From: a virus
Reading direction: 5' to 3' (one strand)
Virus record (IMG/VR): IMGVR_UViG_3300027797_000029
Location: 1-62,754 of that record
Length of the DNA stretch: 62,754 nt
Part shown: positions 9,955-42,211 of the stretch, one piece after another
How the letters are laid out: every line of letters starts with the position of its first letter
Position numbering within the stretch: position 1 is the first letter of the stretch
Program-made: the position numbers and the translations under genes
Notes under the pieces: generated by a model
The model's input: the letters and a program-made list of their open reading frames with translations, nothing else
What the model was told of the DNA's origin: nothing
Database searches by the model: none

Positions 9955-9967
9955 CAAGGATAATTGA

Positions 9968-11695
9968 ATGACGTGGAAAAAGTATTTCTCGCCCGTTGAG
10001 GTCAACGGACAATTAAGTACCATCAGTGGACTTAATAGCGGCAATCGCCCCGGCCCGGCCAGAACTAACTATTCCAGCTATTTGCCAGATGTTTATTCCG
10101 GCAGTCCCAATCGTGTTGAACGTTATCAACAGTATGAAGTCATGGACAGTGATCCAGAAGTCAATGCTGCTTTGGATATTTTAGCAGAGTTTTGCACACA
10201 GAAATTGAAAGATGGCAAGAGTCCATTTGCAATCAAATGGCGTCAAAAAGCCACCAACAGTGAAATTAAAATTCTAAGTGAATACTTGCAACAATGGAAC
10301 ACACTGCAAAAGTTTGACACACGTATTTTCCGCATTGTGCGCAACACATTCAAGTATGGTGATGCATTTTTTATTCGTGATCCAGAAAATCAAAAATGGA
10401 GTTACATTGACGCAAGCAAAGTGGTCAAGGTGATTGTGAATGAAAGTGAAGGCAAGAAACCTGAACAGTTTGTGATCAAAGACCTAGCTCCTAACTTTGT
10501 TAATCTAGTGGCAACACAGATCACACCCAGTGTGAATCCCCGTAGTCATTCAGGTCCAGGCGGTGCTGGTGGCCCGCAACAATACGCAGGATCAACCAGC
10601 AGCAACGGCGGCAGTGGCAGCAATCGTTTTGGATTACAGCAAACTGAACAGGCAATCAACGCTGAACACATCATTCATTTGAGTCTAAGCGAAGGGTTAG
10701 ACAACAACTATCCGTTTGGCAACAGTTTGCTGGAAAACATTTACAAAGTTTACAAACAAAAAGAATTATTAGAAGATGCCATCTTAATTTATCGTATACA
10801 ACGTGCTCCAGAGCGCAGAGTATTTCACATTGATGTGGGCAACATGCCCAGTCACTTGGCCATGGCATTTGTGGAACGTGTTAAAAACGAGATTCATCAA
10901 CGTCGTATTCCGTCACAAACCGGCGGTGGACAGAACGTTATTGACAGTGCGTATAACCCACTTTCAATCAACGAAGATTATTTCTTCCCCAAGACAGCAG
11001 ACGGTAAAGGTTCAGATGTTACCATGCTTGAGGGTGGCAAGAACATTGGTGAAATTGACGATTTAAAGTACTTTACTAACAAATTGTTCCGCGGTTTGCG
11101 CATACCAAGCAGCTACTTGCCCACAGGACAAGACGACAGTCAAAGCAATTTCAATGACGGCCGTGTGGGCACTGCATACATTCAAGAACTGCGTTTTAAC
11201 AAGTATTGTGAGCGTTTACAAGCACTGATCACCGCAGTTTTTGACGAAGAATTCAAGATGTACATGCACAGCAAGGGCATGAACATTGACGCAAGTTTGT
11301 TTGAATTACAGTTTAATCCACCACTTAACTTTGCCAGTAGCAAGCAGGCCAGCATTGATGCAGAGCGTATCAACACATTTAATACTATTCAAGCTGTGCC
11401 GTTTGTGTCCAAGCGATTTGCATTGAAACGCTTCTTGAGCTTGACAGATGAAGAAGTAGCAGAAAACGAACGCATGTGGGGCGAAGAGAATGGTAAAGGG
11501 CATCCAACTACCACAGATGCCGCTGGTGAATTGCGTAGTGCAGGCCTAAGTGCCAGCGGTATTGCAGGTGACGCAGATGCAGCAGGCGACCTAAGTGCGC
11601 CTGATGATATGGATACCAGTGCGCCTGGAGAACCAGGACAGGCAGCACCACCAGGTGGTGCACCAGCAGCTCCTGCGCCAGTGCCTACTGCATAA
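9968..11695 (+). CDS. 20: Portal vertex protein gp20
   Basis: Forms the dodecameric portal at the capsid vertex, the site of DNA packaging and neck attachment. The N-terminal MTWKKYFSPVE and the segment SDPEVNAALDILAEFCTQ are characteristic of gp20 in marine T4-like phages. The core follows (YGDAFFIRDPE, RAPERRVFHIDVGNMP, FRGLRIPSSYLPTGQDD). A Gly/Ser-rich loop near 190-220 and a Pro/Ala-rich tail are variable. Its 575 residues compare with 524 in T4. It is the first gene of the head cluster gp20-gp23, with spacing and order as in T4. Confidence 0.95.
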   Translation: MTWKKYFSPVEVNGQLSTISGLNSGNRPGPARTNYSSYLPDVYSGSPNRVERYQQYEVMDSDPEVNAALDILAEFCTQKLKDGKSPFAIKWRQKATNSEIKILSEYLQQWNTLQKFDTRIFRIVRNTFKYGDAFFIRDPENQKWSYIDASKVVKVIVNESEGKKPEQFVIKDLAPNFVNLVATQITPSVNPRSHSGPGGAGGPQQYAGSTSSNGGSGSNRFGLQQTEQAINAEHIIHLSLSEGLDNNYPFGNSLLENIYKVYKQKELLEDAILIYRIQRAPERRVFHIDVGNMPSHLAMAFVERVKNEIHQRRIPSQTGGGQNVIDSAYNPLSINEDYFFPKTADGKGSDVTMLEGGKNIGEIDDLKYFTNKLFRGLRIPSSYLPTGQDDSQSNFNDGRVGTAYIQELRFNKYCERLQALITAVFDEEFKMYMHSKGMNIDASLFELQFNPPLNFASSKQASIDAERINTFNTIQAVPFVSKRFALKRFLSLTDEEVAENERMWGEENGKGHPTTTDAAGELRSAGLSASGIAGDADAAGDLSAPDDMDTSAPGEPGQAAPPGGAPAAPAPVPTA

Positions 11696-26687: not shown

Positions 26688-29600
26688 ATGGCTGAATTTA
26701 AACTAGGAAGATTACGATTTGTATGGCAAGGCCCTTGGGTTTCAGCCACTAACTATGTCAAAGATGACATTGTTGCCTACGGCGGTAAGACGTATGTCTG
26801 CTTAGTCGGGCATACTGCCAACGCAGTATTTTATACAGATCTTAATAATGCAACTGCAAAATGGTCACAGATGTCCGACGGTGTGTCTTGGAAAGGCGCA
26901 TGGTCAAACACCACGGCATTTTACAAGATCAACGATATTGTACAAGTTGGCGGCAAAGATTATATCTGTTTGATAGGTCATACTCCCACAACAATCAGCC
27001 CAGTCAATCAGGGATTTTATACCGACCTAACTGCCAGCAAATGGCAATTGATGGTAGATGGTATTTCTTGGAAAACCACTTGGACCACAGCCACTTACTA
27101 TAACTTGGGCGATATTGTAAAGTTTGGCGCCAAAGAGTTTATCTGCGTAACCGGCCACATCAGCAGTTCCACACCCAACAGCGGATTTTACAGCGATTTG
27201 GCAGCTCTCAACTGGCAGTTATTTGTAGACGGCCAAACATTTATTGGTGCATGGACATCCACAACATATTATAAAATTGGTGATATTGTTAACTATGGTG
27301 GCACCAGTTACATTTGCAATACCGGACACACCAGTAGCACAACCCTTGAAGTGAATCAAGCCAATTGGACCACATTTATTCCAGGATTTGCATGGCTTGG
27401 CACTTATGCCAACGGGTATACTTACAAAGTAAATGATATTGTAAAATACGGACCTGATGCTTATATTTGCACAACAGCATACACATCTGTCACAAACACC
27501 ATTGATTTGACCAAATGGGCTTTGTTTGTGGCAGGTTTGGAATTTATGAATACCTATTCCAGTGCAACCAGTTACGCACTTGGCCAAGTGGTAACATATG
27601 GCGGATATGTTTATACTTCTTTGGTCACCAACAACTTGAATCAAACACCCAGTATTAGTCCCAGCTTTTGGAGTTTGGTAACCACCGGTTTCAACGTTCA
27701 AGGCAACTGGAATTTAACAACAGCTTACAAAGTTGGTGCAGTTGTTACTTACGGCGCATATGTTTATGTTTCTATTTTGGACGGAACTGGTTTCAATCCG
27801 GCAAACAATCCAACATATTGGTCCTTACTGAACACTGGCGTGTCTTGGCAAGGATTATGGACCGCAGGCGGAACATTCACAGCTAACATTGCCACAACCA
27901 ACATGACGGTCAGTGTGGTGGGCACAACATACTTGCGTCCTGGCGTGGTTATCACAGGATCTACCACATCGGCAAACACTGTGATCACAGGACAAACCAG
28001 TGGAACCACAGGTGGCGTGGGAGTATACACAGTCAATAACAGTCAAACAGTTGGCGCACCAGGTGCTGGCCAAGTTACATTAACTGCCACATCGTCTTAT
28101 AGATTAGGCGATTCAGTTGTGTATGGTCCAAACAGTTACATCTGTGTTGCAGCACACACTTCGGGCTACACTAGCCCAACAGGTCCAGCAACATCCAGCA
28201 ACAACAGACCGGACGTTGATACCGCAGGAACTTATTGGAACACATTGGCTCTTGGCAGTGCGGCCAACGTTCTTACCACTCTGGGCGACACTGTTTATTA
28301 CAGCGCAGGCGGCAATGCACGACTACCAATCGGTGAAGACGGTCAAATCCTGCGTGTTACTGGATCAGTACCAACTTGGAACTATTTTGGCCAAGTTGCC
28401 AATGTTTATTATGTTGCTCCCAGCGGTACAGATGCAACTGACTATGGTATTACTTTGGATAAGCCTTGGAAAACTGTTGCGTATGCTTGTGCTCGTGTGG
28501 CACAAGGTCCTGCTAATCCAAGTGCGCAATACTTGATTAATCAAAACAAGTCATGGGTGGGTGCTGAAGCCAACAACTATCTAGCTCACACTAACAAAGT
28601 TAGCGTTACCGGTACCACTGCTGGCGGCGCTTTTACCACAACCAGTACAGCAGGCTTGGCTGTTAACATGCCCATTGTGTTTAACACATTTGGTGGATAC
28701 TTAACAAACATCACACAGGCATATGCAAGTCAAAATTTATCAGTTATCAGTAGTTCAGGCACATTGCTAACAGTTAGCTCAAACATCTCTGGTGTAGTTG
28801 TTAATCAACCAGTGACATTTACCGCAGGATTTGGTAACGTGAGTTCGGGCACTGTGTATTATATTCAATCAGTGGCTGGCACACAGTTTACCATAAGTTT
28901 AACCCCAAGCGGCACAGTGTATACTGTGGGCGGTGGTGGTAGTGGTACAGCAGCAGTGCAGGGAACATTTGTAGTTGACAGCACAGTTGGATTTACACAA
29001 AACGTGCCGTTCCAAGTAACTGGAACAACTTTTGGTAATTTGTCATTGGCCACTAACTATTTTGTTTCAAACATAATTAGCGGAACATTTGTTACGTTCA
29101 GTGCCAGCAGCGGCGGCCCAGTTTTGACCAACGTTACTCCAGCTTCTGGCACAATGGCTGTTACCACTAACAACACATTGACACTGGCCGCTGCGTCATT
29201 GACCACAGCAGCCGCAACTATTGAACAAACTTATCTAGCACAAACATTGTCTGTGTTAAGTTCTGCTGGAACTACCATCACAGTCAGTGCAAACATGGTT
29301 GATGTCAGTGTTAATCAACCCATTGTGTTTAGTGCAAGTTTTGGCACAGTGGATGCAGGTGCAATTTATTATGTACAAGCAGTCAGCGGCACAAGTTTAA
29401 CTATCTCGTTGAATGTGAATGGAACACCATACACAGTGGGCATTGGTAATCAGCCTTGCAGTGCATCAGTGCAAGCCATGTTAAGAGCCACAACTACCAG
29501 CAACATACGGGCTGGCAGCAGTTTTACTGTAACAGGTGCGTTTGGCGGATTGAATACTTCAACAACTTATTACACAACTCAAGTGTTGTCAAGCACACTG

Positions 29601-32600
29601 TTCCAAGTCAGCACAACTAACGGTGGCCCTGTGATATCAACATTATCGGCTGCAACTGGTACAGCAACAGCCAACCAAGGCGTCACTTACTATGTTAAAA
29701 CTATCACAACAAACACCAGTTTTACTGTGTCAAATACATTTGGCGGCACAGCAATTACTGCTGCTGGTTCAGGTACTGTGACAGGTGTGCTTTCATACAA
29801 CGGATTCAAAGCCAAAAGAGATGTTGAGCAAATTTTAAGTGCAGTGGTTTTTGACATAGGACGGGGTGGCAACTTATCCACTACATTGGTGGCAAGATCA
29901 TACTATGCCACAGCAACAACTTACACATCAACTGTGACTTTATATTTGCTGCCTTATTTTGTGTCAGCATTAACATATGCAAGCACATTGACATCTACAA
30001 ATGTGTTGGGACAGTCTGCACCAGCCAACAACTACCAGACATTGAATGGTGTTTCTGCTGCAATCAGTCAGTTTACCAGCGGCAGTTACACAGCTGAAGC
30101 AGGCATGAACACCAAAGCTACCACATTGTTTGCAACTGTGACCAGCGGATTAAACGCTGGCACAACCAATGCTATTCCAGCACCAATAAATCCCACAACT
30201 TCTATCTTTATCAAAACAGGCACATACTCTGAAATATTACCAATCAGTGTGCCAGCATTCACATCACTGATAGGTGACGAACTTAGATCAACAATTATTC
30301 AGCCACTCACATTCAGTGTGACTGCAACCACAAGTTCTGGCACCAGTTTGACATTGTCTGATGCTACTAATGTCACGGTTGGCATGGGTATCAGTGGCAA
30401 TGCATTTATTCCAGATGGTGCGTTTGTTATTGCCAAATCAGGCAATGTGTTAACACTAAGCGCAGCAACCACTGGCACAGTGGTTGGTGCATTGGTAGCA
30501 GGCTACACAGTCAGTGACATGTTCTACATGCGTAACGGTACTGGTGCTAGAAATATGAGTGTTACTGGTTTATTTGGCAAAGTTGGTTCAGCAAACAGCT
30601 ACGGCACAGCACGACCCACAGCAGGCGCATATTTCAGCTTAGATCCAGGCAACGGCCCGGACGACGACACTGTGTGGATTTATTCAAAGAGTCCATATGT
30701 GCAAAACGTTTCACTGTTTGGAACAGGTTGTGTTGGTTGCAAGATTGACGGCAGCTTGCATGCCGGCGGCAACAAATCCATGACACTGAACGACTTTACT
30801 AATATTTTATCAGATGGTATTGCAATTTGGGCCACGCAATTGGCCAAATGCGAAGCTGTGTCTGTGTTCTCGTATTATTGCTATGCAGGATACTTGAGTG
30901 AGTACGGCGGCGCAATTCGAGCCACCAACGGCAACAGTTCTTATGGTACCTACGGTTGTGTGGCAGAAGGAACCAGCCCAACTGAAGTGCCAATCACAGC
31001 CGTGGTCAACACTCAAACCCAAGAGGCACAGGTCACATTTGTTTTGACAGGTGGCGGCCAAATTCTTTGGTTGGAATATTCAAATGCTGGTCAGGCCTAC
31101 AGTTCAGCATCTTACAGCATTACCAGCGGCAGCGGCGGCGGCGCAGCAGTTAGTGCAGCCAACTATTTTACCAATGCAGTAACTGAAGTGCGTATTGTGA
31201 CAGGCGGTGCCAACTACCTAACAGCCACCAATGTGGCTCAGAATGGAACTGCCAGCACTATCACGTTGTCAGCAGCTGATTCAGCAGCCAACAATGCATA
31301 TGTGGGCATGCGCATTGTGTTGCAAGCCGGCACAGGCGCTGGCCAATACGGGTTTATCAATTATTACAACGCCAGTACAAAACAAGTGATTGTGTTAAAA
31401 GAATCTGTTGCAGGAATTGTCACAAGCACTTGTTCAACCACCGTGTTCAACGTTACTGACACTGCAAATATTCCAGCAGGCACACCAGTTGTGTTTACTG
31501 GCACATCGTTTGCTGGTGGATCAATAACAAATAACACTGTGTTTTATGTAGTGGCCAATAACTTTACAGCAACCACATTCTCAGTGGCCACTGCCGCAGG
31601 CGGAACACCTATCACACTCACAGCAGGGTCTGGCACAATGAGTATATTTGTGGCAATGTGGGATGTGGCTGTGAGCGGTACCAGTGTGCAAACAGTGTTG
31701 GACGGCAGCACACGCTATGTTATTGAACCACGAATCACTTTCAGTGGATCAGGCACTGGCGCATTTGCTCGTGCTGTTGTGGCTACCAATCAAATTGCAG
31801 CAATTAGAATTATCAATCCAGGATCAGGATACGGCAGTGCTCCAAGCATAACCATTACTGATCCCAATTCAACCACTGCAGCCACTACCACCGTGCGTGT
31901 ACAACCCACTGGTGTGTTGGGGCAACCCACTTGGGCCAGCAGAGGCACCAATTACAACGAAGCTGCAGTCACAGTAACTGGTAACGGTTTTGCAGATTTC
32001 CAAGCACTGGGATTCTTCATCAACTTGAGTGGCATGACCAAAGTGCCAGTTCCAGGCGCAAACATTGCATTCACAGGCAACTCAACTTATTACATTGTGG
32101 TTCAGGTACTGAGTTACACTGGCAGTGCAGGCAATTACGATGCTAGTATACAGATCAATCCAGGCTTGACTGTGACAGATTCTCCAGTGAACGGAACAGT
32201 TGTTACCATCACCATTGACTACAGTCAAGTTCGGTTAACTGGACATGACTTCTTGTATGTGGGTTCTGGCAACTTCTACAACACTGGTTATCCAAACAAT
32301 TTCAGCACAGCCAACAAAATTGTGGCCAATCAAACTGTTAACAGTGCAGGCGGTCGTGTGTTCTTCACAGCCACTGACCAGGACGGTAACTTCAACGTGG
32401 GTAACTTGTTCACAGTGCAACAGGCCACTGGTATTGCCACACTCAGCGCCAGTTTGTTCAATTTGAGCGGTTTGAATCAACTACAGTTTGCTTCAGGCGG
32501 CGCACTGGTCACACAGTTCAGTACTGATGGCAACATGACTGGAAACAGCGACAGTTTGGTTCCAACACAACGTGCTGTTAGAGCATACATTGCCAGTCAG

Positions 32601-32855
32601 TTGGGTGCAGGCGGCAGCAACATCACAGCCAACAGTTTGACAGCTGGCAGTGTGTACATCAGTGGAACCACTATCACCACAACCAACGCCAACAATTTGA
32701 TAATTACATCCACAGGAACTCAAATTTCTGTGAACAATTTGGCAGTGTTCACAAGAGCGCAAACCGCTACTGTGCCGCTGGTAGCCAATGATTTGACTAA
32801 TAAAGCGTATGTGGACAATGTCAAGAGTTTTGCATTTTTCATTAGTTCTCAGTGA
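26688..32855 (+). CDS. Giant tail fibre/adhesin with eight N-terminal carbohydrate-binding-like repeats
   Basis: A 2055-residue protein, the longest in the window. Residues ~5-520 hold eight units of about 55 residues with the pattern W-G-W...Y..GDIV.YGG..Y.C...HT, resembling small chitin/cellulose-binding modules (CBM5/12 type); the eighth unit is split by a ~70-residue insertion. From ~575 a segment starts (YYVAPSGTDATDYG, PWKTVAYA) as in beta-helix pectate-lyase-like fibres. Two tandem domains follow (VNQPVTFTAGFG... and VNQPIVFSASFG...). The middle region has PTAGAYFSLDPGNGPDDDTV and GCKIDGSLHAGGNKS. The C-terminus (VPLVANDLTNKAYVDNV) is a usual fibre end. Likely a main host-recognition fibre; catalysis cannot be shown. 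Confidence 0.78.
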   Translation: MAEFKLGRLRFVWQGPWVSATNYVKDDIVAYGGKTYVCLVGHTANAVFYTDLNNATAKWSQMSDGVSWKGAWSNTTAFYKINDIVQVGGKDYICLIGHTPTTISPVNQGFYTDLTASKWQLMVDGISWKTTWTTATYYNLGDIVKFGAKEFICVTGHISSSTPNSGFYSDLAALNWQLFVDGQTFIGAWTSTTYYKIGDIVNYGGTSYICNTGHTSSTTLEVNQANWTTFIPGFAWLGTYANGYTYKVNDIVKYGPDAYICTTAYTSVTNTIDLTKWALFVAGLEFMNTYSSATSYALGQVVTYGGYVYTSLVTNNLNQTPSISPSFWSLVTTGFNVQGNWNLTTAYKVGAVVTYGAYVYVSILDGTGFNPANNPTYWSLLNTGVSWQGLWTAGGTFTANIATTNMTVSVVGTTYLRPGVVITGSTTSANTVITGQTSGTTGGVGVYTVNNSQTVGAPGAGQVTLTATSSYRLGDSVVYGPNSYICVAAHTSGYTSPTGPATSSNNRPDVDTAGTYWNTLALGSAANVLTTLGDTVYYSAGGNARLPIGEDGQILRVTGSVPTWNYFGQVANVYYVAPSGTDATDYGITLDKPWKTVAYACARVAQGPANPSAQYLINQNKSWVGAEANNYLAHTNKVSVTGTTAGGAFTTTSTAGLAVNMPIVFNTFGGYLTNITQAYASQNLSVISSSGTLLTVSSNISGVVVNQPVTFTAGFGNVSSGTVYYIQSVAGTQFTISLTPSGTVYTVGGGGSGTAAVQGTFVVDSTVGFTQNVPFQVTGTTFGNLSLATNYFVSNIISGTFVTFSASSGGPVLTNVTPASGTMAVTTNNTLTLAAASLTTAAATIEQTYLAQTLSVLSSAGTTITVSANMVDVSVNQPIVFSASFGTVDAGAIYYVQAVSGTSLTISLNVNGTPYTVGIGNQPCSASVQAMLRATTTSNIRAGSSFTVTGAFGGLNTSTTYYTTQVLSSTLFQVSTTNGGPVISTLSAATGTATANQGVTYYVKTITTNTSFTVSNTFGGTAITAAGSGTVTGVLSYNGFKAKRDVEQILSAVVFDIGRGGNLSTTLVARSYYATATTYTSTVTLYLLPYFVSALTYASTLTSTNVLGQSAPANNYQTLNGVSAAISQFTSGSYTAEAGMNTKATTLFATVTSGLNAGTTNAIPAPINPTTSIFIKTGTYSEILPISVPAFTSLIGDELRSTIIQPLTFSVTATTSSGTSLTLSDATNVTVGMGISGNAFIPDGAFVIAKSGNVLTLSAATTGTVVGALVAGYTVSDMFYMRNGTGARNMSVTGLFGKVGSANSYGTARPTAGAYFSLDPGNGPDDDTVWIYSKSPYVQNVSLFGTGCVGCKIDGSLHAGGNKSMTLNDFTNILSDGIAIWATQLAKCEAVSVFSYYCYAGYLSEYGGAIRATNGNSSYGTYGCVAEGTSPTEVPITAVVNTQTQEAQVTFVLTGGGQILWLEYSNAGQAYSSASYSITSGSGGGAAVSAANYFTNAVTEVRIVTGGANYLTATNVAQNGTASTITLSAADSAANNAYVGMRIVLQAGTGAGQYGFINYYNASTKQVIVLKESVAGIVTSTCSTTVFNVTDTANIPAGTPVVFTGTSFAGGSITNNTVFYVVANNFTATTFSVATAAGGTPITLTAGSGTMSIFVAMWDVAVSGTSVQTVLDGSTRYVIEPRITFSGSGTGAFARAVVATNQIAAIRIINPGSGYGSAPSITITDPNSTTAATTTVRVQPTGVLGQPTWASRGTNYNEAAVTVTGNGFADFQALGFFINLSGMTKVPVPGANIAFTGNSTYYIVVQVLSYTGSAGNYDASIQINPGLTVTDSPVNGTVVTITIDYSQVRLTGHDFLYVGSGNFYNTGYPNNFSTANKIVANQTVNSAGGRVFFTATDQDGNFNVGNLFTVQQATGIATLSASLFNLSGLNQLQFASGGALVTQFSTDGNMTGNSDSLVPTQRAVRAYIASQLGAGGSNITANSLTAGSVYISGTTITTTNANNLIITSTGTQISVNNLAVFTRAQTATVPLVANDLTNKAYVDNVKSFAFFISSQ

Positions 32856-32863
32856 CCAAATGA

Positions 32864-32871
32864 ACTAAATA
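32864..32871 (+). promoter_or_regulatory. Weak late promoter-like box (ACTAAATA)
   Basis: Six of eight bases match. It lies 24 bases upstream of the ATG at 32896, with GGAG between them. Confidence 0.35.
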
Positions 32872-32895
32872 CACTAAGATAACGGAGAAAAGATT

Positions 32896-33237
32896 ATGGC
32901 AGCAGGAAGATTAGGCACACCGGCAAATTTAGCAGCAGGAACAAACACCACGCTGTACACTAACGCCACCTCATACGCAGTGTGTACAGTGAACATTTTG
33001 AATCGCAACACAACTGCGTTGACAATTCGACTGGGATTGACTTCCACAGGCACGTCAGGCGGCTTTACCGGCGGCGGCGGCACACCAGGACTTGCAGAAT
33101 GGCTGGAGTTTGACACAGTTATCCCAGCCAATGGTGTGTTGGAACGCACTGGATTAGTAGTGGGCGCCACTCAAAATTTGGTTGCTTATGCCAGTGCCAC
33201 TGGTGTCACTGCCATGGTGTACGGAATTGAGACTTAA
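32896..33237 (+). CDS. Small beta-sandwich virion protein
   Basis: A 113-residue protein with the same layout as the 122-residue protein at 18448: AVCTVNILNRNTTALTIRLGL, a Gly-rich turn (FTGGGGTPG), then VIPANGVLERTGLVV and a closing strand. GGAG lies upstream of the ATG. It probably decorates or caps fibres. Function inferred. Confidence 0.6.
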   Translation: MAAGRLGTPANLAAGTNTTLYTNATSYAVCTVNILNRNTTALTIRLGLTSTGTSGGFTGGGGTPGLAEWLEFDTVIPANGVLERTGLVVGATQNLVAYASATGVTAMVYGIET

Positions 33238-33249
33238 TAGGAGCCACTG

Positions 33250-33600
33250 ATGGGACGATTTCTTGGACAAGGCTACGCTAGACAAACACCTGACAGTTTT
33301 GCAGAAACTGTGGATGTCACAACCAATATCACATTGGCGTTGAATTCCATCTATTATGTCAATACCACAGCCGCAATTGTTACACTGACATTGCCACAAT
33401 TGCCCTCAGCTGGTGACTTTGTGGATATCATTGATGCTGCTGGAACATTTGACATATACAATTGTGTTATTATTCCCAGTGGTGACGGATCAACGGTGGC
33501 TGGATTTGCAGACAACCTAACATTGAATCTTAGCCGTTTAAGTGTTCGCTTGCAGTATTCAGTTGGAAGAACCAGCTGGCTAGTAACTCAGCTGATATAA
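33250..33600 (+). CDS. Small virion protein
   Basis: A 116-residue protein: MGRFLGQGYARQTPDSFAET, then a beta domain with LNSIYYVNTTAAIVTLTLPQLPSAGDFV and TSWLVTQLI at the end. The phrase about values that vanish into LPxxPxxGDFV resembles short fibre-end domains of other phages. AGGAG precedes the start closely. The gene lies between the small sandwich protein and the cysteine-rich pair, probably as part of one adhesin operon. Confidence 0.6.
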   Translation: MGRFLGQGYARQTPDSFAETVDVTTNITLALNSIYYVNTTAAIVTLTLPQLPSAGDFVDIIDAAGTFDIYNCVIIPSGDGSTVAGFADNLTLNLSRLSVRLQYSVGRTSWLVTQLI

Positions 33601-33614
33601 GGAATAGATAAAAA

Positions 33615-34694
33615 ATGGCAAACGTATTAAGTTATATTAACACAGGATCAGTTTCAGGACCGACCGCTGGCGGCTTTACTCCTCCGCCAGGCATGTGGTG
33701 TCGACCAGCACACAAACCCACTCAGTGTGTGTTGATAACAGGTGACAACGTATGTTGTTTCTGTGTGCCAACCACAGCTACTTGTTTTGTTATTGAAATG
33801 TGGGGACAAGGCGGTGGCGGTGGCGGTGGTTGCTGTTGCGGTGTTGGATCATATGGAGGCCAAGGTGGGTCATATGGATTTGTTGCTTGCACAATTAGTG
33901 GTCAAAATTGGATTCTATGTGCATGTGTATGCAATTGCAGTTGCACAACTTGCACCATATGCACTGGCTCAATGGGACAGTTTGCCAGAGTTTGTCAGTG
34001 CAATGGTGGTGTAAACGGCACATGGTGGTGCATATGCGGTGGTTGTGAAGGTTACTGGTGTTGTAATCCCAGCGCACCATGGTGTTGGGACGGCGGCCAA
34101 CAAAACCCTGGCGCCTGGCCAACTGGCCAAAAATACAACATGTGGTTGCACTGGAAAGAAAGAAGCGCCTGTTTAGCAGGACGCTGCGGTAGTACTACAG
34201 CTGCGGCGCCCGCAGCTGGATTACCAATGTGTACAAACAGCGGTGTTGCTGGCCAAGCTCCTGTAGCTGCCACATACACCGGATGCACAACAGCAATGCC
34301 AACAAGTCCAACCGCAGGATCGAGCGGCGGCAACATACTAGATATTGTATTTCCAAAGAAAACTTGCGCCTGTTTTCAACCACTGGGTTACATATGGCAA
34401 GGTGCTTGTGGCTTTAGCGATCCAGGATTAGGAAATATGCCTGCTAGTTGTTTGAATACTGGTTACTTTAACAGTTCGATACCAAACTCAGCATGTGGCG
34501 GTGGCATGGGTGTTGGCGGATCAGCTTATGCCGGCGGCGAACAAGCATGGAAAAAATGCGGTTTTGATTGCGGCGGTTGCTGGCCACAAAATGGAAATTT
34601 TCCAGGCGGTGGCGGCATGAGTACTCACTCTTGCTCAGCATGGTCTCATCCAGGGTGCGGCGCAATGGGTTTAATTTTGATGAGTTACTGTTAA
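33615..34694 (+). CDS. Cysteine-rich, glycine-rich adhesin-like protein A
   Basis: A 359-residue protein with about 40 Cys by my count (roughly 11 percent), including CCFC, CCC and CACVCNCSC. The frame of the fold is that of glycine-rich phage fibre tips: CFVIEMWGQGGGGGGG corresponds to the usual VxVWGxGGGGGG strand, followed by YGGQGGSYGFV and an end PGGGG...MGLILMSYC. Cysteines sit where ordinary members have Thr, Val or Gln. There is no signal peptide, so it is made in the reducing cytoplasm; disulfides after lysis, or metal binding, are possible. It is paired with a paralogue nine bases downstream. Probable receptor-binding tip, inferred. Confidence 0.75.
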   Translation: MANVLSYINTGSVSGPTAGGFTPPPGMWCRPAHKPTQCVLITGDNVCCFCVPTTATCFVIEMWGQGGGGGGGCCCGVGSYGGQGGSYGFVACTISGQNWILCACVCNCSCTTCTICTGSMGQFARVCQCNGGVNGTWWCICGGCEGYWCCNPSAPWCWDGGQQNPGAWPTGQKYNMWLHWKERSACLAGRCGSTTAAAPAAGLPMCTNSGVAGQAPVAATYTGCTTAMPTSPTAGSSGGNILDIVFPKKTCACFQPLGYIWQGACGFSDPGLGNMPASCLNTGYFNSSIPNSACGGGMGVGGSAYAGGEQAWKKCGFDCGGCWPQNGNFPGGGGMSTHSCSAWSHPGCGAMGLILMSYC

Positions 34695-34703
34695 GGAAAA
34701 ATT

Positions 34704-35708
34704 ATGGCATTAATAACAAGTTTATTCACAGTAGGTACCGCTGGTGCTTCAACAGCCAGAGCCTGGTGTCGTCCTACACATAGAACTAACTGTGCATATG
34801 TGATCGGAGCCAACTCGTGTTGTATTTGTATTCCAGCAAGTGCCACCTGTTATGTAATTGAAATGTGGGGACAAGGTGGTGGTGGTGGTGGCGTTTGCTG
34901 TTGCATGGGTGCGTTGTATGGCGGTCAAGGCGGATCGTATGGATTTGTCACTTGCACAACCAGTGGCCAAGTACACACCATGTGCATGTGTTCGTGTGTG
35001 TGTACATGCGCAAGCTGTGGCACCAGCGGCCACGCGGGCCAACTGTCAGTTGTATGCGACTGCAGCTTGTCCATCAATTGGACAATATCTGGCGATGCAT
35101 GTGGCGGCTGTGCATGTTGCAATGGCATACAAACCATGAGTGCAGGCGGCTGCTCAACCTGCGGTGGATCGTATTCACGCAACCCAGCACATGCCAACAT
35201 GTCCATTAATTGCTGTTGTTTTGGACAGTGGATTGCACAAATTGGTGTTGGGCACACATGTGTTAGTCATTGGACAACAGAAACGTGCAGCACCCGAGAC
35301 ATGTTCCAGTTGGGTGCAAACATGCCGTTTTTACAACGTCAGGGCACCAACGCATATGGTTGCACTTGTGCTTGTTGCACTAGATTTAACTTTTATGTGC
35401 AAGGTGCTTGCGGCTGGAGTGCTCCAGATCTAGTAACCTGGTATGGAAGTGACACTTGCGGCGGACAACTATTTAATAAGCCGACCTGCACTTATTGTGG
35501 TGCTGGCCTATATGGCTCAGGCGGCACTGCTTATGCTGGCGGAGCAGGACAATGTTGTAACTGTGATATGGGTAATTACTACTGGCAAGGTGCGGACGGA
35601 AACTTCCCAGGCGGTGGCGGCAGCAATGCAGGACACATGTACAGCCCGGGATCATGCTGTATTGGATCATGCGGCGGATTTGGACTAATATTGATCAGTT
35701 GGTCTTAA
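34704..35708 (+). CDS. Cysteine-rich, glycine-rich adhesin-like protein B
   Basis: A 334-residue paralogue of protein A with about 43 Cys by my count (near 13 percent). It shares WCRPxH near residue 22, CYVIEMWGQGGGGGG, GGQGGSYGFVTC, a run MCMCSCVCTCASC, then YAGG and GNFPGGGG, and ends GLILISWS. Identity with A is concentrated in the Gly-rich core, and the Cys-rich loops differ, as expected if loops recognise different targets. AAGGAAAA precedes the ATG. It is followed by a His/Cys-containing protein that might assist maturation. Confidence 0.75.
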   Translation: MALITSLFTVGTAGASTARAWCRPTHRTNCAYVIGANSCCICIPASATCYVIEMWGQGGGGGGVCCCMGALYGGQGGSYGFVTCTTSGQVHTMCMCSCVCTCASCGTSGHAGQLSVVCDCSLSINWTISGDACGGCACCNGIQTMSAGGCSTCGGSYSRNPAHANMSINCCCFGQWIAQIGVGHTCVSHWTTETCSTRDMFQLGANMPFLQRQGTNAYGCTCACCTRFNFYVQGACGWSAPDLVTWYGSDTCGGQLFNKPTCTYCGAGLYGSGGTAYAGGAGQCCNCDMGNYYWQGADGNFPGGGGSNAGHMYSPGSCCIGSCGGFGLILISWS

Positions 35709-35746
35709 CATATTAAATAATTAACAAAAGAATTCAGGAGAAACAA

Positions 35747-36823
35747 ATGAGATTTACATACCAAGCACCAGTTGAATATAATGATTTAACTAGCGGTTTA
35801 AGAACTGTTGAGAGCAGATATCAAGGCCCGCACGATTTTAAAGTCTATGTTGATAAAGTTACTAGACGAGTTACTCATGGTGTTGAATTTGACCACGACG
35901 GCCACCCAGGAGTACATGCTGGAGACCCAGAAACCCTGCATGATGGTTGTGAGATGCACTATTTACATTCGCATAATCCCAACCACATTTGTTTGATGGC
36001 AATGATAACCAATCATGAAGAACATGAAGCAACCAATGTTGTAGAGGTGGTGTGTGAAAAATACAACATGGTATATCAACGTCATGAACCCATGGATTTA
36101 TTTCATACATTTGATTTTCAAAAATGCACAATTGATGAAAGAGGAGTGGTTACATATGCATGGTGGCAAATGGCTATATCTTGGGAAATGCTAGTTAGTC
36201 AAGGCATTTCCCATAGAGGTGTTATACAAGAACGAATGAAGGGCTACATGTCAGCTGAACGTATGCAAAAAGCTCAATATTGCATAGAAATTATCGACTA
36301 TGTGCTATCAAACGAAATTAGTAAAAAACATCCATGGAAAATAGCATGGCCAGACATCGACACTGTTAGTTTAGATAACTCTATACCAATTGGTCTAGGG
36401 TCTGGTACTCAGAAAAACGAAGATTGGTTGGCAATTGAACTACAACCGTATTATCAAACCAAATACTGGGGAAGTACTCCGCATGAAAAGGCTGACAGAC
36501 CAGTGGGCAGCGGCTTGCTTCGTTCAAAGAACCCAATGTCCCCATCGGAAGCAGCTCTAGTTGAGGGTGCGCTTGTTTACCAAGAATCTCTCTCTTATTG
36601 CTGGTGTGATGAGCGTTTAACCGATGCGCACCCGAGTCACTGTCATAGAGTTGATGAACATGACATAATTCGTCAGCAATTGATTGACAGTAATCCAGAT
36701 ATTGAACTTACTGCACATCTTATACGTACTGCCCACGAACACCACTGCAAAGTGTGTGAAGAAAACGGTGACCCAGTACATCGTAAGTGTATTCCATCGG
36801 ATGATTCAAGTCATACTCATTAA
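35747..36823 (+). CDS. Unknown His/Cys-rich protein after the cysteine-rich adhesins
   Basis: A 358-residue protein not recognised. The N-terminal half is His-rich (EFDHDGHPGVHAGDPETLHD, MHYLHSHNPNHICL, NHEEHEAT). The C-terminus has HEHHCKVCEENGDP...KC, which looks like a small metal site. The middle (YAWWQMAISWEMLVSQGISH) is helical. Unlike its neighbours it is not Thr/Ser-rich and reads like a soluble enzyme or chaperone. Being directly after the two Cys-rich adhesins, a role in their metal loading or folding is a reasonable guess only. CAGGAGA precedes the ATG. Confidence 0.6.
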   Translation: MRFTYQAPVEYNDLTSGLRTVESRYQGPHDFKVYVDKVTRRVTHGVEFDHDGHPGVHAGDPETLHDGCEMHYLHSHNPNHICLMAMITNHEEHEATNVVEVVCEKYNMVYQRHEPMDLFHTFDFQKCTIDERGVVTYAWWQMAISWEMLVSQGISHRGVIQERMKGYMSAERMQKAQYCIEIIDYVLSNEISKKHPWKIAWPDIDTVSLDNSIPIGLGSGTQKNEDWLAIELQPYYQTKYWGSTPHEKADRPVGSGLLRSKNPMSPSEAALVEGALVYQESLSYCWCDERLTDAHPSHCHRVDEHDIIRQQLIDSNPDIELTAHLIRTAHEHHCKVCEENGDPVHRKCIPSDDSSHTH

Positions 36824-36908: not shown

Positions 36909-37859
36909 ATGAGTTCAAGACCCAAAGCATTTTTTATCAACGGCGGCGCTGGCCGAGTTATATGTGCAGTTCCTGCATTGGAAAAATATGCAGAAGATCA
37001 TCCAGATGAAAAATTTTTAATAGTGTGTGAAGGCGGCACTGACTTCTTCAAAGCACACCCCAAACTTCATAATCGTGTGTACGATAATTGGCACAAAAAT
37101 CTATTCCACGATAAATTAATTGATATGGATTTGGTAACACCAGAACCGTATAGAGTTTGGGAATATTTCAACCAAAAATGTTCTCTTAGTCAAGCATTTG
37201 ATATTGAAATCAATAACAACGGTGTTAGAGATTTGCCCAGGCCCACACTAAAGTTAACACAAGACGAAATTACCAACGGCAAATTTGGCATAAAAGATGT
37301 AATTTCAAAGACTGGTAAATCTAAAACAATAGTATTCCAGCCGTTTGGCCGCGGCGTAAACATGAAAGGCGATATTGTAACAGACCCATCTGGCCGCAGC
37401 TTTGAATTGGGTAATGTTGTAAATATTATTAATAAGTTACAAAAAGATTTTTCAGTTATTGTTATGACTGAATTACCATTGAATTTTCAAACATTGGGCT
37501 GCAAGGAGCAAGTTGCAGTGCCCGCCAACATTCCTATTCGTCAGTGGGCTGGCATTATTAAAAATGCAGATGTAATACTATCATGCGACAGTGTTTCTCA
37601 ACACATTGCATATGCGCTGAATAAACCAGCTGTAACTGTGGTGGGATCGACATTTCCTATCAATGTATCATATCCTGCTTGTGAAAATATCCGAGTGTTG
37701 GATATGGGGGAAGGAGCTAGAATTTACAGCCCTATACGGATAACTGCAGACGAGTATGCAGACATGAATAATGATGGAATTATGGCAATGAATGATAAAG
37801 TTGAAAACGCTATTGTGGAATCAGTATTCGAGATGTATGATAACTTTGTAAAACAATAA
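36909..37859 (+). CDS. Glycosyltransferase family 9-like (GT-B) protein
   Basis: A 316-residue protein. INGGAGRVICAVPALEKYAE at the N-terminus has the Gly-rich loop and following helix seen in heptosyltransferase-like GT-B enzymes. The C-terminal nucleotide-binding side shows WAGIIKNADVILSCDSVSQH and ALNKPAVTVVGST, the family's best-kept part. The acceptor could be a surface sugar or a modified base; it cannot be read from sequence. First gene behind a consensus promoter and 14 bases upstream of the carbamoyltransferase. Confidence 0.78.
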   Translation: MSSRPKAFFINGGAGRVICAVPALEKYAEDHPDEKFLIVCEGGTDFFKAHPKLHNRVYDNWHKNLFHDKLIDMDLVTPEPYRVWEYFNQKCSLSQAFDIEINNNGVRDLPRPTLKLTQDEITNGKFGIKDVISKTGKSKTIVFQPFGRGVNMKGDIVTDPSGRSFELGNVVNIINKLQKDFSVIVMTELPLNFQTLGCKEQVAVPANIPIRQWAGIIKNADVILSCDSVSQHIAYALNKPAVTVVGSTFPINVSYPACENIRVLDMGEGARIYSPIRITADEYADMNNDGIMAMNDKVENAIVESVFEMYDNFVKQ

Positions 37860-37873
37860 AGGAAAACTAAAAT

Positions 37874-39676
37874 ATGTCAGAAAATAAAAAAAATATTTGG
37901 GTAGCGGGGATAACACGTGGCCATAATGCCGGAGTTTGTTTACTGAAAGACGGAGAAATTGTGTTCAGCATTGAAGAGGAGCGACTTACCCGTCAAAAAT
38001 ACGACGGGGGCCCATTGGCAACCATGCTTAAAATACTTGACTACACACCCAAATTAGACTACCTTGTTATTGCACATACTACTCCTAAAGAAACTGCTGG
38101 TAAAATTGACTTTACTGGTGACGATATGTACACTGGTTTTGCTCGTAAATTGGGATTGATTGATAGAAAAGCGGACAAGTGGAAGCATCCTCAAGTTATT
38201 GATCTCAGCCACATACATCACAAGTTACATGCAGCTTGTGCATTTTATCGATCAGGCTTCGAAGAAGCAGTTTCTGTAATTGTGGACGGCGCTGGCACAT
38301 TTTTAGAACTGGAGTTTCAAGGAGAAAAATTAACCGGCTGGGAAACTGAAAGTATTTTTGATTGTGCATACCCTGCAAATTTTACAACACTATACAAACA
38401 TATTGGAATTAGAGAACCCAAACCGGGCGCAATTATTAAGAATTTCTCTGGAGATCGATATAACGAAAAAACAACTCACGAAGCCAGAATTGGAGATTAT
38501 GCTGGAATTGTTAAAGTTTATGAAGCTGTAACAGAGTATTGTGGATTTAGTGCTATTGAAGCTGGAAAAACTATGGGATTGTTTCCTTACGGAAAACTCA
38601 ACAATGGTATTCCGCCGTTATTCGATACCACAGGGACCCATCCAAACTCTAATCGAAATTTAGTTATTCCGAGATATCCAAATGGTGCAATCATCAACCA
38701 TAGCTTATATAGTTTCTTGGATGAACATAACTCAAATGATCTCTCTGAACTGGAAAATCGTCGTGACCTTGCATACGCATGCCAAACACAGACACAAGAA
38801 CAGGTGTTACAATTAATTTTTAAAGCAGTTGAAATGTCTGGAAAAAATAATGTAGTGTTAAGTGGTGGATATGGACTTAACTGTGTGGCTAATTATTTTT
38901 ACCTTGACAAATTAAAAGAAAAAGGTATAAATTTATATGTAGAACCTATCAGCAATGATGCTGGAACTGCAATGGGAGCAGCTATGATGATATATCGATC
39001 TGCAGTTAACGATTCTACTATTACTAAATTCAAAGATAATTTATATCTGGGATTACATAAGACGTATACCGACGACGATATCGAATTAACTTGTGCATTA
39101 TTTGATAATGCCGAATTTATAAATGCAACACATAAAGATGTTGTTGATTTATTACGCAATAAAAATATTGTGGCCGTATTCCAAGGACGCAGTGAAAACG
39201 GGCCCAGAGCGTTGGGCAATCGTAGTATTTTATTTGATCCTACAGTGTTGGATGGCAAAGATTTTGTCAATAGTGTAAAACATCGAGAATATTTTAGACC
39301 GTTTGCTGGAACAATCCTTAAAGAACATGCGCACGATTGGTTTGATTTGCGAGGCATGGAAGAAAGTCCCAGTATGATGTATGCTGTTAATTGTCAACCC
39401 GGAATTGCTGAAAAAATACCCAGTATTATTCACGTAGATGGCACTTGCCGTATACAAACAGTTACTGCAGAACAAAATAAACATTTTTATGATTTAATTA
39501 GTGAATTTTACAAAGAATCAGGAGTACCAATTTTGTTTAATACCAGTTTTAACTTGGGCGGAGACCCGTTGGTTGAAACATTAGAAGACGCATTAGACAC
39601 ACTTGCAAGAAGCGAAATTGAATACTTGTATCTACCAGAAAATAAAAAATTAATTAGAATTCTTAATCAAGAATAA
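37874..39676 (+). CDS. Carbamoyltransferase, NodU/CmcH/TobZ family
   Basis: A 600-residue, full-length two-domain enzyme. The N-terminal Kae1-like domain starts IWVAGITRGHNAGVCLLKDG with SIEEERLTRQKYDGG; HIHHKLHAACAFY provides metal-binding His, and VVDGAGTFLEL follows. The C-terminal YrdC-like domain shows GRSENGPRALGNRSILFDP and YFRPFAGTIL. Such enzymes move a carbamoyl group from carbamoyl phosphate, via carbamoyl-AMP, to a hydroxyl on a sugar, antibiotic or nucleoside. Related phage enzymes are linked to carbamoyloxymethyl-cytosine in DNA. The substrate here is unknown. The gene stops two bases before the first nitrilase gene. Confidence 0.92.
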   Translation: MSENKKNIWVAGITRGHNAGVCLLKDGEIVFSIEEERLTRQKYDGGPLATMLKILDYTPKLDYLVIAHTTPKETAGKIDFTGDDMYTGFARKLGLIDRKADKWKHPQVIDLSHIHHKLHAACAFYRSGFEEAVSVIVDGAGTFLELEFQGEKLTGWETESIFDCAYPANFTTLYKHIGIREPKPGAIIKNFSGDRYNEKTTHEARIGDYAGIVKVYEAVTEYCGFSAIEAGKTMGLFPYGKLNNGIPPLFDTTGTHPNSNRNLVIPRYPNGAIINHSLYSFLDEHNSNDLSELENRRDLAYACQTQTQEQVLQLIFKAVEMSGKNNVVLSGGYGLNCVANYFYLDKLKEKGINLYVEPISNDAGTAMGAAMMIYRSAVNDSTITKFKDNLYLGLHKTYTDDDIELTCALFDNAEFINATHKDVVDLLRNKNIVAVFQGRSENGPRALGNRSILFDPTVLDGKDFVNSVKHREYFRPFAGTILKEHAHDWFDLRGMEESPSMMYAVNCQPGIAEKIPSIIHVDGTCRIQTVTAEQNKHFYDLISEFYKESGVPILFNTSFNLGGDPLVETLEDALDTLARSEIEYLYLPENKKLIRILNQE

Positions 39677-39678
39677 CC

Positions 39679-40518
39679 ATGATAGAAATTTTAAATAAAA
39701 CTATAAGATTTGGTGGAGCACAAATTCCTGTTACCCCCGATATACAAAAAAATATCAAATCTATTAAAAAAGCAATCGATTGGGCTGCAGAAAACAAAGT
39801 GGATTACCTAGTAACTCCTGAGGCATCACTTAGTGGATACTCTACAACTTGGTGTGACAATGTTGCAGTTCTGGCAGATTCTCTTAAAGAGATCGAAGTA
39901 TATGCTGCATTAATGAACGTTGGATTGTGTTTAGGCACACTATGGATAGAATCTGAATATGAAAAAGACAATACGTTAAAAGAAATTAAACGAAATCAAC
40001 TGAGATTTTATACAGCAGACGGAAAGTTTATTGGTGTAATTAACAAAACTGTTACAACTCCTCACGATCAGTTGCTTGGATTGGTAGATAGCGTAAACTT
40101 AACAGGAATATTATTAACTTTTGAAAAAATACATATACCAATAGCAGCATTTATATGTGCTGATTTGTATGGTTTAAATAGCGGCCGTGGCGGACTCCCA
40201 GAACAATTATATGATTCCGGAGCCAAGTTATTTTTACATCCTACCAATGCCGAACGAGGATTAGATCCTTTAAGAGATGAAATAGAAGAAATGTGGATAG
40301 AATCGTGGATTAGACGTGTATCATTTAAGCTACGGCCGATAATTTCTGTAGATAATTCTTGTACAATGACCGGTGAGCATTATGATGGAAAAACCATGAC
40401 TCAAAGCGGAGTATGTGCTGGTGGCGTATGGGTTAATACAGTTCCAAGACTTGGTGAACAATATTTTTATCACGATTTTGTATTAAACGATCTTATTTTA
40501 GAAAGAAATCCTTATTAA
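39679..40518 (+). CDS. Nitrilase-superfamily (CN hydrolase) protein, copy 1
   Basis: A 279-residue protein with the complete Glu-Lys-Cys triad of the nitrilase fold: PEASLSGY (E48), INKTV (K123) and FICADLYG (C160). Family members hydrolyse or form C-N bonds (amides, nitriles, N-carbamoyl groups). The location right after a carbamoyltransferase suggests a carbamoyl- or amide-containing substrate. First of three tandem paralogues; the first ~55 residues are almost identical to copies 2 and 3. Confidence 0.88.
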   Translation: MIEILNKTIRFGGAQIPVTPDIQKNIKSIKKAIDWAAENKVDYLVTPEASLSGYSTTWCDNVAVLADSLKEIEVYAALMNVGLCLGTLWIESEYEKDNTLKEIKRNQLRFYTADGKFIGVINKTVTTPHDQLLGLVDSVNLTGILLTFEKIHIPIAAFICADLYGLNSGRGGLPEQLYDSGAKLFLHPTNAERGLDPLRDEIEEMWIESWIRRVSFKLRPIISVDNSCTMTGEHYDGKTMTQSGVCAGGVWVNTVPRLGEQYFYHDFVLNDLILERNPY

Positions 40519-41514
40519 TTAAAAATAATATGAAAATAATAAAAACTATAAGATTTGGAGTGGCGCAGATTCCTGTCACCCCGTTCCAACAACGAAATAT
40601 TGAAACTATTAAAAAAGCAATCGATTGGGCTGCAGAGAACAAGGTGGATTACCTAGTAACTCCTGAGGCATCACTCAGTGGGTATTCTACAAGCTACTAT
40701 AGAGATTTAGAGTTTTTAAATAGTGGGTTACATGAAATAGAAATGTACGCAATATCAAAAAATGTTGGATTATGTTTGGGCACACTGTGGGTAGAGTATA
40801 ACGAACCAGGACACGAGCAGAAACTTGTAAAAAGAAATCAAATTAGATTTTATACAAAAGAAGGTAGATTTTTAGGTTCGACCAATAAACAAGTATTAAC
40901 TCCTTTGGATTTAGAAATTGGCATTGTAAAAGGAGAAGGGTTAGCAGGAGTCCTCATACCGTTTGAAGATAAAGTTATTCCAGTTGCTGGATTAATTTGT
41001 GCAGATTTATACGGACATTTAAGTAATTATGGTGGTCTTCCACAACAGTATTTCACTATGGGTGCAAAATTACTGATACATTCAACTAATGCAGAACGTG
41101 GTTTAGATAAATTCAAAGATAAACTTGAAGAACAGTGGCTTGAAGCAAACATAACTCGAATTTCATATTTGTTATTTCCAGTAATTTCCGCAGATAATTC
41201 TTACACAATGTCCGGAGAGCCTTATACCGGAAAAACTATAACTCAGAGTGGATTTTGCATTGGTGGTAAATGGGTTAATAAAGTTCCAAGAACAGGTACC
41301 CAATATTCGTATCATGATTTTGATATTAAAAAAATAGCAATAGACTTAGCTGATCTTCCTAAATCCAAATTATCATGAAAAATACCATAAGATTTGGAGG
41401 TGCGCAGATTCCTGTTACACCTGACATACAACAGAATATCAAAACTATTAAAACAGCAATAGACTGGGCTGCAGAGAACAAGGTGGATTATCTAGTAACT
41501 CCTGAAGCATCACT
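39772..41514 (+). repeat. Near-identical 59-base block in the three nitrilase genes
   Basis: Blocks at 39772-39830, 40617-40675 and 41456-41514 encode AIDWAAENKVDYLVTPEASL. Copies 1 and 2 differ at two of 59 bases and copies 2 and 3 at about four, while downstream parts of the genes are far more diverged. This uneven identity fits gene conversion or strong selection on the block, and offers sites for recombination that could change copy number. Confidence 0.8.
40530..41378 (+). CDS. Nitrilase-superfamily (CN hydrolase) protein, copy 2
   Basis: A 282-residue tandem paralogue. The triad motifs are intact: PEASLSGY, TNKQV and LICADLYG. It differs from copy 1 mostly after residue 60, in loops that line the active site in this fold (GHLSNYGGLPQQY against GLNSGRGGLPEQL). 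It ends four bases into copy 3 (overlap ATGA), implying coupled translation. Three intact copies suggest hetero-oligomers or three related substrates, rather than decay. Confidence 0.88.
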   Translation: MKIIKTIRFGVAQIPVTPFQQRNIETIKKAIDWAAENKVDYLVTPEASLSGYSTSYYRDLEFLNSGLHEIEMYAISKNVGLCLGTLWVEYNEPGHEQKLVKRNQIRFYTKEGRFLGSTNKQVLTPLDLEIGIVKGEGLAGVLIPFEDKVIPVAGLICADLYGHLSNYGGLPQQYFTMGAKLLIHSTNAERGLDKFKDKLEEQWLEANITRISYLLFPVISADNSYTMSGEPYTGKTITQSGFCIGGKWVNKVPRTGTQYSYHDFDIKKIAIDLADLPKSKLS

Positions 41515-42211
41515 GAGTGGATATTATACAACAGACGACGCTTCTATTAAAAGTGTAGCAACTGCAATGTCCACGATAGAAAAATATGCAGCCAGTAAAA
41601 AAATAGGTCTGTGTCTAGGTACAATATGGGACGAAGCAGAAGTTGATAAAACTGTAAGACGTAATCAGATCAGATTTTACAATCGGAAAGGGTTGCTGTG
41701 CGGCGTTACTAATAAAAGGTATGCCATCGAATTTGATCGAACAATCGGTGTAACGGGCGACAACAATGCAACATTGATACCCTTGCCAATTAAAAATAAA
41801 CTTATACCTGTTGGCGGCCTAATATGTATAGATATGTATGTGTCATCACCTGAGGAAATGACCCCAATTTTGAAATTGAATGCGCAAGGCGCAAAATTAA
41901 TAATACACTCAACTAATGCAGCACGTAATGTGTCAGTAAAAAACAAACCTAGTGTAGAACTAGCAGACAAAATAGCTAATGATTGGCACGATATATGTTT
42001 AAGACGTGCGTCGTTTCTAACAAATCTCCCAATTATAACGGTGGATAATTGTTACATGGCTGACGGTACTGAATATCACGGTCCTACATCTAGTGAAAGC
42101 GGTGTGTTAATTAATGGAGAGTGGGTCACTAAAATACCTAGAACTGGAACTCAGTATTTTTACCACGATTTTAACATTGACGAAGTGGCAATTGATTGGC
42201 CAAAAAACTAA
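41375..42211 (+). CDS. Nitrilase-superfamily (CN hydrolase) protein, copy 3
   Basis: A 278-residue, most diverged paralogue. PEASLSGY, TNKRY and LICIDMY keep the triad, but the segment after the nucleophile Cys (IDMYVSSPEEMTPI) differs from copies 1 and 2 and lacks their Gly-Gly-Leu-Pro loop, so substrate choice may differ. The N-terminal ~55 residues remain nearly identical. The gene ends one base from the stop of the converging HAD gene. Confidence 0.87.
   Translation: MKNTIRFGGAQIPVTPDIQQNIKTIKTAIDWAAENKVDYLVTPEASLSGYYTTDDASIKSVATAMSTIEKYAASKKIGLCLGTIWDEAEVDKTVRRNQIRFYNRKGLLCGVTNKRYAIEFDRTIGVTGDNNATLIPLPIKNKLIPVGGLICIDMYVSSPEEMTPILKLNAQGAKLIIHSTNAARNVSVKNKPSVELADKIANDWHDICLRRASFLTNLPIITVDNCYMADGTEYHGPTSSESGVLINGEWVTKIPRTGTQYFYHDFNIDEVAIDWPKN

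Follow-up and report, generated by a model that had tools for sequence, protein, structure and literature searches.

The locus analyzed here lies in a stretch of 62,754 nucleotides (hereafter the window), which corresponds to positions 1 to 62,754 of the IMG/VR record IMGVR_UViG_3300027797_000029 and derives from an uncultured T4-like phage. Its fibre region encodes two adjacent cysteine-rich proteins, referred to as putative tip proteins 1 and 2, flanked by a giant tail fibre gene and two small genes on one side and by a partner gene and two sugar-related genes on the other (Table 1).

Table 1. Features of the fibre locus in the window.
Feature	Coordinates	Strand	Length (aa)	Basis or remark
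Giant tail fibre	26688..32855	+	2055	Eight CBM5/12 modules; PF02839 E 3.3e-33, 8 stretches
Small protein	32896..33237	+	113	Weak matches to tail-fibre PHROGs, E 0.009-0.012
Small fibre-domain protein	33250..33600	+	116	phrog_31104 (E 1.7e-12) and weaker tail-fibre/connector PHROGs
Cys-rich putative tip protein 1	33615..34694	+	359	40 Cys, 11.1%
Cys-rich putative tip protein 2	34704..35708	+	334	43 Cys, 12.9%; predicted TNF-like/Gly-rich fold
Partner, probable Tfa-like fibre-assembly chaperone	35747..36823	+	358	Profile match to relatives, E 3.2e-14
Glycosyltransferase family 9 (GT9), heptosyltransferase-like	36909..37859	+		PF01075 E 2.5e-6; conserved neighbour
NodU/Nol-type carbamoyltransferase	37874..39676	+		PF16861 E 1.1e-56, PF02543 E 2.6e-26; conserved neighbour

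The giant fibre matches the tail fibre family phrog_9851 (E 3.8e-159), and its tblastn matches are tail fibres of cyanophages and pelagiphages; it is likely the shaft that bears the tips. The 113-aa protein encoded between the fibre and the tips occupies the same place in the cyanophages P-SSM2, S-CAM1, and S-CAM3.

The first-pass annotation, made from the sequence alone, had reported two adjacent ORFs with about 11-13% Cys and around 40 Cys each. Both coordinates and counts agree with our analysis, and every motif listed there (IEMWGQGGGGGG, GGQGGSYGF, PGGGG, CACVCNCSC, and MCMCSCVCTC) is found in the two ORFs. The two proteins are paralogues with 35% identity, and tip protein 1 has an orthologue in contig L004 (6923-7996) with 57% identity and 34 Cys in common. 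Since the remaining genes of the window have only 0.56% Cys (95 of 17,013 codons), chance is excluded as the source of these counts: the binomial probability of 40 and 43 Cys at the background frequency is ~1e-38 and ~1e-44, respectively. The next highest Cys content in the window, 3.1%, belongs to the neighbouring gene at 35747. C-x-C spacings are more frequent than in shuffled sequences (9 vs. 4.3 expected, p = 0.017, and 12 vs. 5.4, p = 0.002, in the two proteins). Whole-protein Gly content is 18-19%, and short Gly runs such as WGQGGGG and PGGGG are retained.

The five alternative frames of the same DNA contain less Cys and 9-15 stops each. In the annotated frame, comparison with the nearest relative over the first 114 codons, where 16 of 16 Cys are in common, gives a dN/dS of 0.16, and further pairs give 0.20-0.25; all of these are shallow pairs, as deeper ones had saturated dS and were left out. 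Both frames are therefore real coding sequence. The extreme composition could in principle reflect a reading-frame or compositional artefact, but purifying selection, the existence of more than 300 related ORFs, and their presence in independently sequenced isolates rule this out, leaving it a negligible probability. A metallothionein-like metal buffer, a class of short proteins with ~30% Cys and almost no aromatic residues, was also considered and rejected, as the tip proteins have 334-359 aa, 11-13% Cys, 2.7-4.2% Trp, and a beta-rich predicted fold.

Relatives in cultured and uncultured phages

Relatives of the window type were identified in ~17 IMG/VR contigs, with 9-14% Cys. When 50,697 phage records were searched by tblastn with window-type proteins, no match was obtained; cultured isolates were reached by way of the upstream fibre gene, which led to the conserved fibre locus in Prochlorococcus phage P-SSM2. 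This phage encodes two proteins annotated as hypothetical, PSSM2_304 and PSSM2_306, with 36 Cys each (10.1%). Three tandem Cys-rich genes are present in S-SSM7 (SSSM7_114-116, 28-30 Cys in ~262 aa), and three Cys-rich genes each in Sf-FS3 (25-28 Cys), S-CAM1 (SXBG_00224-226), and S-CAM3 (24-36 Cys in the latter two). IMG/VR was then scanned with the cultured-phage sequences as seeds, keeping the best 80 of 249 and the best 80 of 95 hits. In total, the IMG/VR contigs and cultured cyanophages contain at least 339 distinct Cys/Gly-rich ORFs with 6-13% Cys; the filter was set at >4% Cys, under which the empty 4-6% range is informative and lower values are not. The first-pass annotation had called such a Cys density very rare, which holds among phage proteins generally; phages of marine and fresh waters nevertheless encode such proteins as a large family with numerous members. 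Two pattern scans of 84,980 bacterial and archaeal genomes revealed no relatives, so no host origin could be traced.

The window type belongs with the cyanophage hypothetical proteins PSSM2_304/306, SSSM7_114-116, and SXBG_00224-226 and with PHROGs 35878 and 4205 to one Cys/Gly-rich family at the same locus, but forms a subfamily of its own, marked by WGQGGGG and CxCxCxCxC signatures. The two types are joined by phrog_4205, matched by 4 of 20 window-type members (best E 8.1e-10), by profile comparisons over the WGxGGGG core (E 4e-5 and 1e-5, as single-comparison E-values), and by the fold. Tip proteins 1 and 2 themselves had no match to phrog_4205 or phrog_35878 in the PHROG profile search.

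Loss of the Cys positions in homologues had been named beforehand as an observation that would refute the first-pass reading. Instead, the positions are kept and are among the best-conserved columns. In the window-type alignment (20 sequences), 11 of the 37 invariant columns are Cys, and mean per-residue conservation is highest for Gly (0.63) and Cys (0.61), followed by Pro (0.41). Among 147 non-redundant sequences of the S-SSM7 type, the columns conserved at 95% or more comprise 21 Cys and 22 Gly.

Two contigs deserve mention for their gene content. L029 (IMGVR_UViG_3300020198_000018) carries both a window-type Cys-rich gene (4998-6038, + strand) and a P-SSM2-type pair with its own partner gene (8362-11072, - strand). 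The window-type Cys-rich gene of L022 (8001-9027; contig shared with L012) runs across two overlapping frames, owing either to a genuine frameshift or to a sequencing error.

Conserved gene order and the partner gene

The genes at this locus follow a conserved order: a CBM5/12-type fibre gene, in most cases genes for small proteins, between one and three Cys-rich genes, the partner, optional genes, GT9, and the carbamoyltransferase. This order was found in the window, P-SSM2, S-SSM7, Sf-FS3, S-CAM1, S-CAM3, and most sufficiently long contigs. The partner gene lies directly 3' of the Cys-rich genes across lineages; in the P-SSM2 type it sits between the two Cys-rich genes.

Proteins of the partner family carry a YxGP motif in their N-terminal part and are variable in their C-terminal part. 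The partner encoded in the window had no direct Pfam match, but its family matches the S-SSM7-type partners (Table 1), 9 of 25 of which contain the Phage_tail_APC domain (PF16778, best E 3.1e-11). Because of this match to relatives, the partner is most likely a fibre-assembly chaperone, like gp25 of phage Pam3, as judged from sequence. In contig L005 (8090-9319), the C-terminus of the partner is a long Gly-Thr-Thr simple-sequence repeat, which the window copy lacks.

Several additional genes were noted around the locus. S-SSM7 (L044, 7643-8302) and Sf-FS3 (L045, 7588-8220) each carry a 2OG-Fe(II) oxygenase-like gene flanked by the chaperone gene and GT9. In the window, the GT9 and NodU-type carbamoyltransferase genes are followed by three tandem carbon-nitrogen hydrolase (nitrilase-like) paralogues (39679-42211), and one or two nitrilase-like genes are present in the corresponding loci of L004, L009, L017, and L018. 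Further along, the window encodes an 848-aa structural-region protein with a YHYH domain (42968-45514; PF14240, E 8e-30), and at 3388-3825 it carries a SegE-like GIY-YIG homing endonuclease gene (PF19835, E 3e-33). The portal protein (9968-11695) has its best matches in jumbo myoviruses (Sinorhizobium phage Phosso, 51%; Agrobacterium Atu_ph07; and the Pseudomonas PA5oct group). Since the portal matches jumbo myoviruses and the fibre module matches cyanophages, these comparisons suggest that the whole tip module (26688-36823) may have been exchanged between distant T4-like lineages.

Predicted fold and comparison with known fibre proteins

The AlphaFold2 model of tip protein 2, built with 20 relatives, has an overall pLDDT of 48, reaching 74-81 at residues 21-60, with fair confidence in the other core strands and values mostly <30 at residues 136-226. 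Its top Foldseek match is the Pam3 fibre (E 0.047), and VIA-align superimposes this low-confidence model on Pam3 fibre 7ypx_A with a Z of 16.0 and an rmsd of 2.8 A over 180 residues. Lower ranks are taken by the Bxb1 tail tip (11.5), the TNF-like/glycine-rich (TG) domains of ALK/LTK (6.6-8.0), and unrelated rows (3.5). An S-SSM7-type relative, predicted with 114 sequences, gave a confident model (pLDDT 82.8, pTM 0.78) that returns the same match list, with a VIA-align Z of 16.6 and a Foldseek E of 2.2e-7 for 7ypx_A. Viral predicted structures matched include proteins of P-SSM2 and S-CAM3 and many phage proteins annotated as 'glycine-rich domain-containing'. The models thus predict a TNF-like beta sandwich running into a bundle of Gly-rich loops, as in TG-fold fibres.

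Profile searches of PDB sequences gave no match, and tip proteins 1 and 2 had no match to Gly_rich_2 (PF21722) in the Pfam profile search. S-SSM7_114 reaches 24.9 bits with this model (cut-off 24.3), and Mosig_00062 of pelagiphage Mosig reaches 50.2 bits. The latter is encoded directly after a homologous CBM5/12-type fibre gene (L042, 12770-14320), and its Gly_rich_2 domain has 39.8% Gly and one Cys, which makes it a natural Cys-poor counterpart. The tip proteins resemble Gly_rich_2 in the WGxGGGG core and the C-terminal GGxGxxGxVxVxY pattern; they differ in their failure to match the Pfam model and from the Mosig domain in its far higher Gly content. A direct match between the P-SSM2-type Cys-rich profile and the Mosig protein failed (E 0.11), and the two connect through Gly_rich_2 and the fold instead.

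Pam3 gp24 is a receptor-binding fibre that joins a TNF-like to a glycine-rich part, and gp25 is its separate chaperone; at the distal end, which faces the host, main-chain hydrogen bonds hold the stacked loops of the Gly-rich domain (39% Gly) in a lattice (PMC9608196). The window locus shares with gp24/gp25 (PDB 7ypx, 7yfw) the predicted TG fold, the adjoining gene for a Tfa-like chaperone, and the fibre context. Unlike Pam3, for which the paper mentions no cysteine or disulfide, the window proteins combine 18-19% Gly with 11-13% Cys, and Cys-rich loci contain one to three paralogues in tandem, preceded by a distinct giant fibre gene. The T-even gp38 adhesins (S16, T2, PP01) offer another parallel: in the portions of the literature accessible to us, gp38 is a distal receptor-binding tip of the long tail fibre with Gly-rich motifs and variable loops, and these portions do not describe it as Cys-rich. 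Searches of Pfam and PDB sequences yielded no match to gp38, and the absence of S16 gp38 from the VIA-align lists is no evidence against a relation.

The predicted fold, the gene order, and the neighbouring chaperone gene give good support to the first-pass reading of the proteins as adhesin-like fibre tips with a Gly-rich core, and we consider it very probable that both are receptor-binding fibre-tip proteins, although a TG fold in common does not by itself prove receptor binding. The TG fold, the arrangement of fibre plus chaperone, and the sequences themselves (without annotation) were already known. A TG tip rich in Cys seems not to have been described before: a search of the open-access literature for a Cys-rich fibre in cyanophages brought up none. 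To our knowledge, the receptor-binding proteins of most marine T4-like cyanophages have not been identified; our analysis offers a likely identity, a TG-fold fibre tip with its chaperone, for groups of 'hypothetical' genes in the model phages P-SSM2 and S-SSM7.

Possible roles of the cysteines

With about one Cys per nine residues, these proteins would have to fold under the reducing conditions of the cytoplasm and later function extracellularly, an unusual chemistry. For extensive disulfides in an extracellular tail, Agrobacterium phage Milano provides a precedent; its structural proteins average 2.1% Cys (PMC10811340). There, however, the disulfides link tail parts, whereas here 11-13% Cys is concentrated within one tip protein.

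The first-pass proposals were a disulfide-armoured tip formed after lysis, metal-thiolate clusters, and Cys ladders stacked along the core. In the S-SSM7 type, the Cys pair 222-245 is jointly present or absent across the 147 sequences, with two independent joint changes, and behaves like a disulfide. The remaining variable Cys show mostly single gains and losses, and odd Cys counts occur in 78 of 147 S-SSM7-type and 53 of 109 P-SSM2-type proteins, which weakens the complete version of the proposal. In the P-SSM2 type, the tail of Cys co-variation is slightly above the Gly, Ala, Ser, Thr, and Asn controls. The single changes and odd counts imply that not all Cys are in fixed intrachain pairs; complete pairing inside one chain is thus unlikely on these alignments, and inter-chain bonds, free thiols, and metal sites must be considered as well. 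Runs of CCC and CxC are also typical of metal sites. On average, the Cys-rich families contain 15-19% Gly and 9-11% Cys, and CC spacing is enriched in them as well.

Our first choice is disulfide stapling after lysis. The paralogous proteins would sit in the virion, presumably as trimers, as receptor-binding tips that terminate the CBM5/12 tail fibre, each with a TNF-like beta sandwich that extends a bundle of Gly-rich loops as in Pam3 gp24, and the product of the gene at 35747 would act as assembly chaperone. In Cys-free relatives, the loop bundle would be held by main-chain hydrogen bonds in a lattice of ~40% Gly; in the tip proteins, Cys would replace part of this lattice, with Gly down to 18-19% and Cys up to 11-13%. 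Cys could stand in for Gly because it is small enough for packing and able to cross-link adjacent loops. The proteins would fold in the reduced state, in the cytoplasm, with the chaperone; after lysis, many inward-facing thiols of adjacent loops would oxidise to disulfides that staple the lattice, and the variable outer loops would stay free for host-surface binding. From the geometry of a polyglycine-II type helix, in which three successive residues point in three directions, a CCC run could reach three neighbours. To this statement as a whole, covering both chaperoned tips on a CBM5/12 fibre and post-lysis disulfides, we assign a probability of roughly 0.55.

The reading we place second keeps the same TG-fold tip, with the Cys forming metal-thiolate sites (Zn, Cu, Fe) that would either stabilize it or serve as bait for metal-uptake receptors, as in the 'Ferrojan horse'. 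The enriched CxC and, in the families, CC spacing resembles metal sites, odd Cys counts and the lack of pairwise co-loss suit clusters better than pairs, and the literature discusses iron in phage fibres; yet profile searches found no likeness to a known metal-binding family, and the Cys are placed in a fold otherwise stabilized by backbone packing, so that we regard metal sites as rather unlikely. It is also conceivable, if quite improbable, that the Cys of the same tip are acceptors of modification, e.g., S-glycosylation by the GT9/carbamoyltransferase pair, or keep their thiols free for reaction with the host surface. GT9 and carbamoyltransferase genes lie 3' of the Cys-rich genes in every lineage examined, and the oxygenase-like genes of S-SSM7 and Sf-FS3 fit such a role, but this is adjacency only, and the sugar genes may have other uses.

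We consider it very unlikely that the proteins are not virion tips at all but intracellular or released redox- or metal-buffering proteins, encoded in the fibre operon and acting outside the fibre. We found no proteomic evidence in the literature for these Cys-rich proteins in virions (Sullivan et al. cite cyanophage proteomes of S-SM1, S-PM2, and Syn9; PMC3037559), and one P-SSM2-type Cys-rich gene lies after the chaperone gene, observations compatible with a non-virion role. Against it, the predicted fold matches that of a receptor-binding fibre of virions, and a probable fibre-chaperone gene adjoins the Cys-rich genes in divergent lineages.

Should the Cys be disulfide-bonded or part of metal sites, ocean phages could depend for their attachment on redox state or trace metals. 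A broader version, in which widespread tips have turned a polyglycine-helix lattice into a Cys lattice that is switched by metal ions from the water or by an S-linked sugar added by the glycosyltransferase, so that the environmental redox or metal state controls attachment, strikes us as doubtful. As close counterparts exist in well-known ocean cyanophages, the role of the Cys is open to laboratory test in existing isolates.

The Cys content of the partner protein also varies among loci, with 3.1% in the window and 3.2-3.4% in L004 and L009, which have two Cys-rich genes, and ~0.4-1% in relatives with a single Cys-rich gene.
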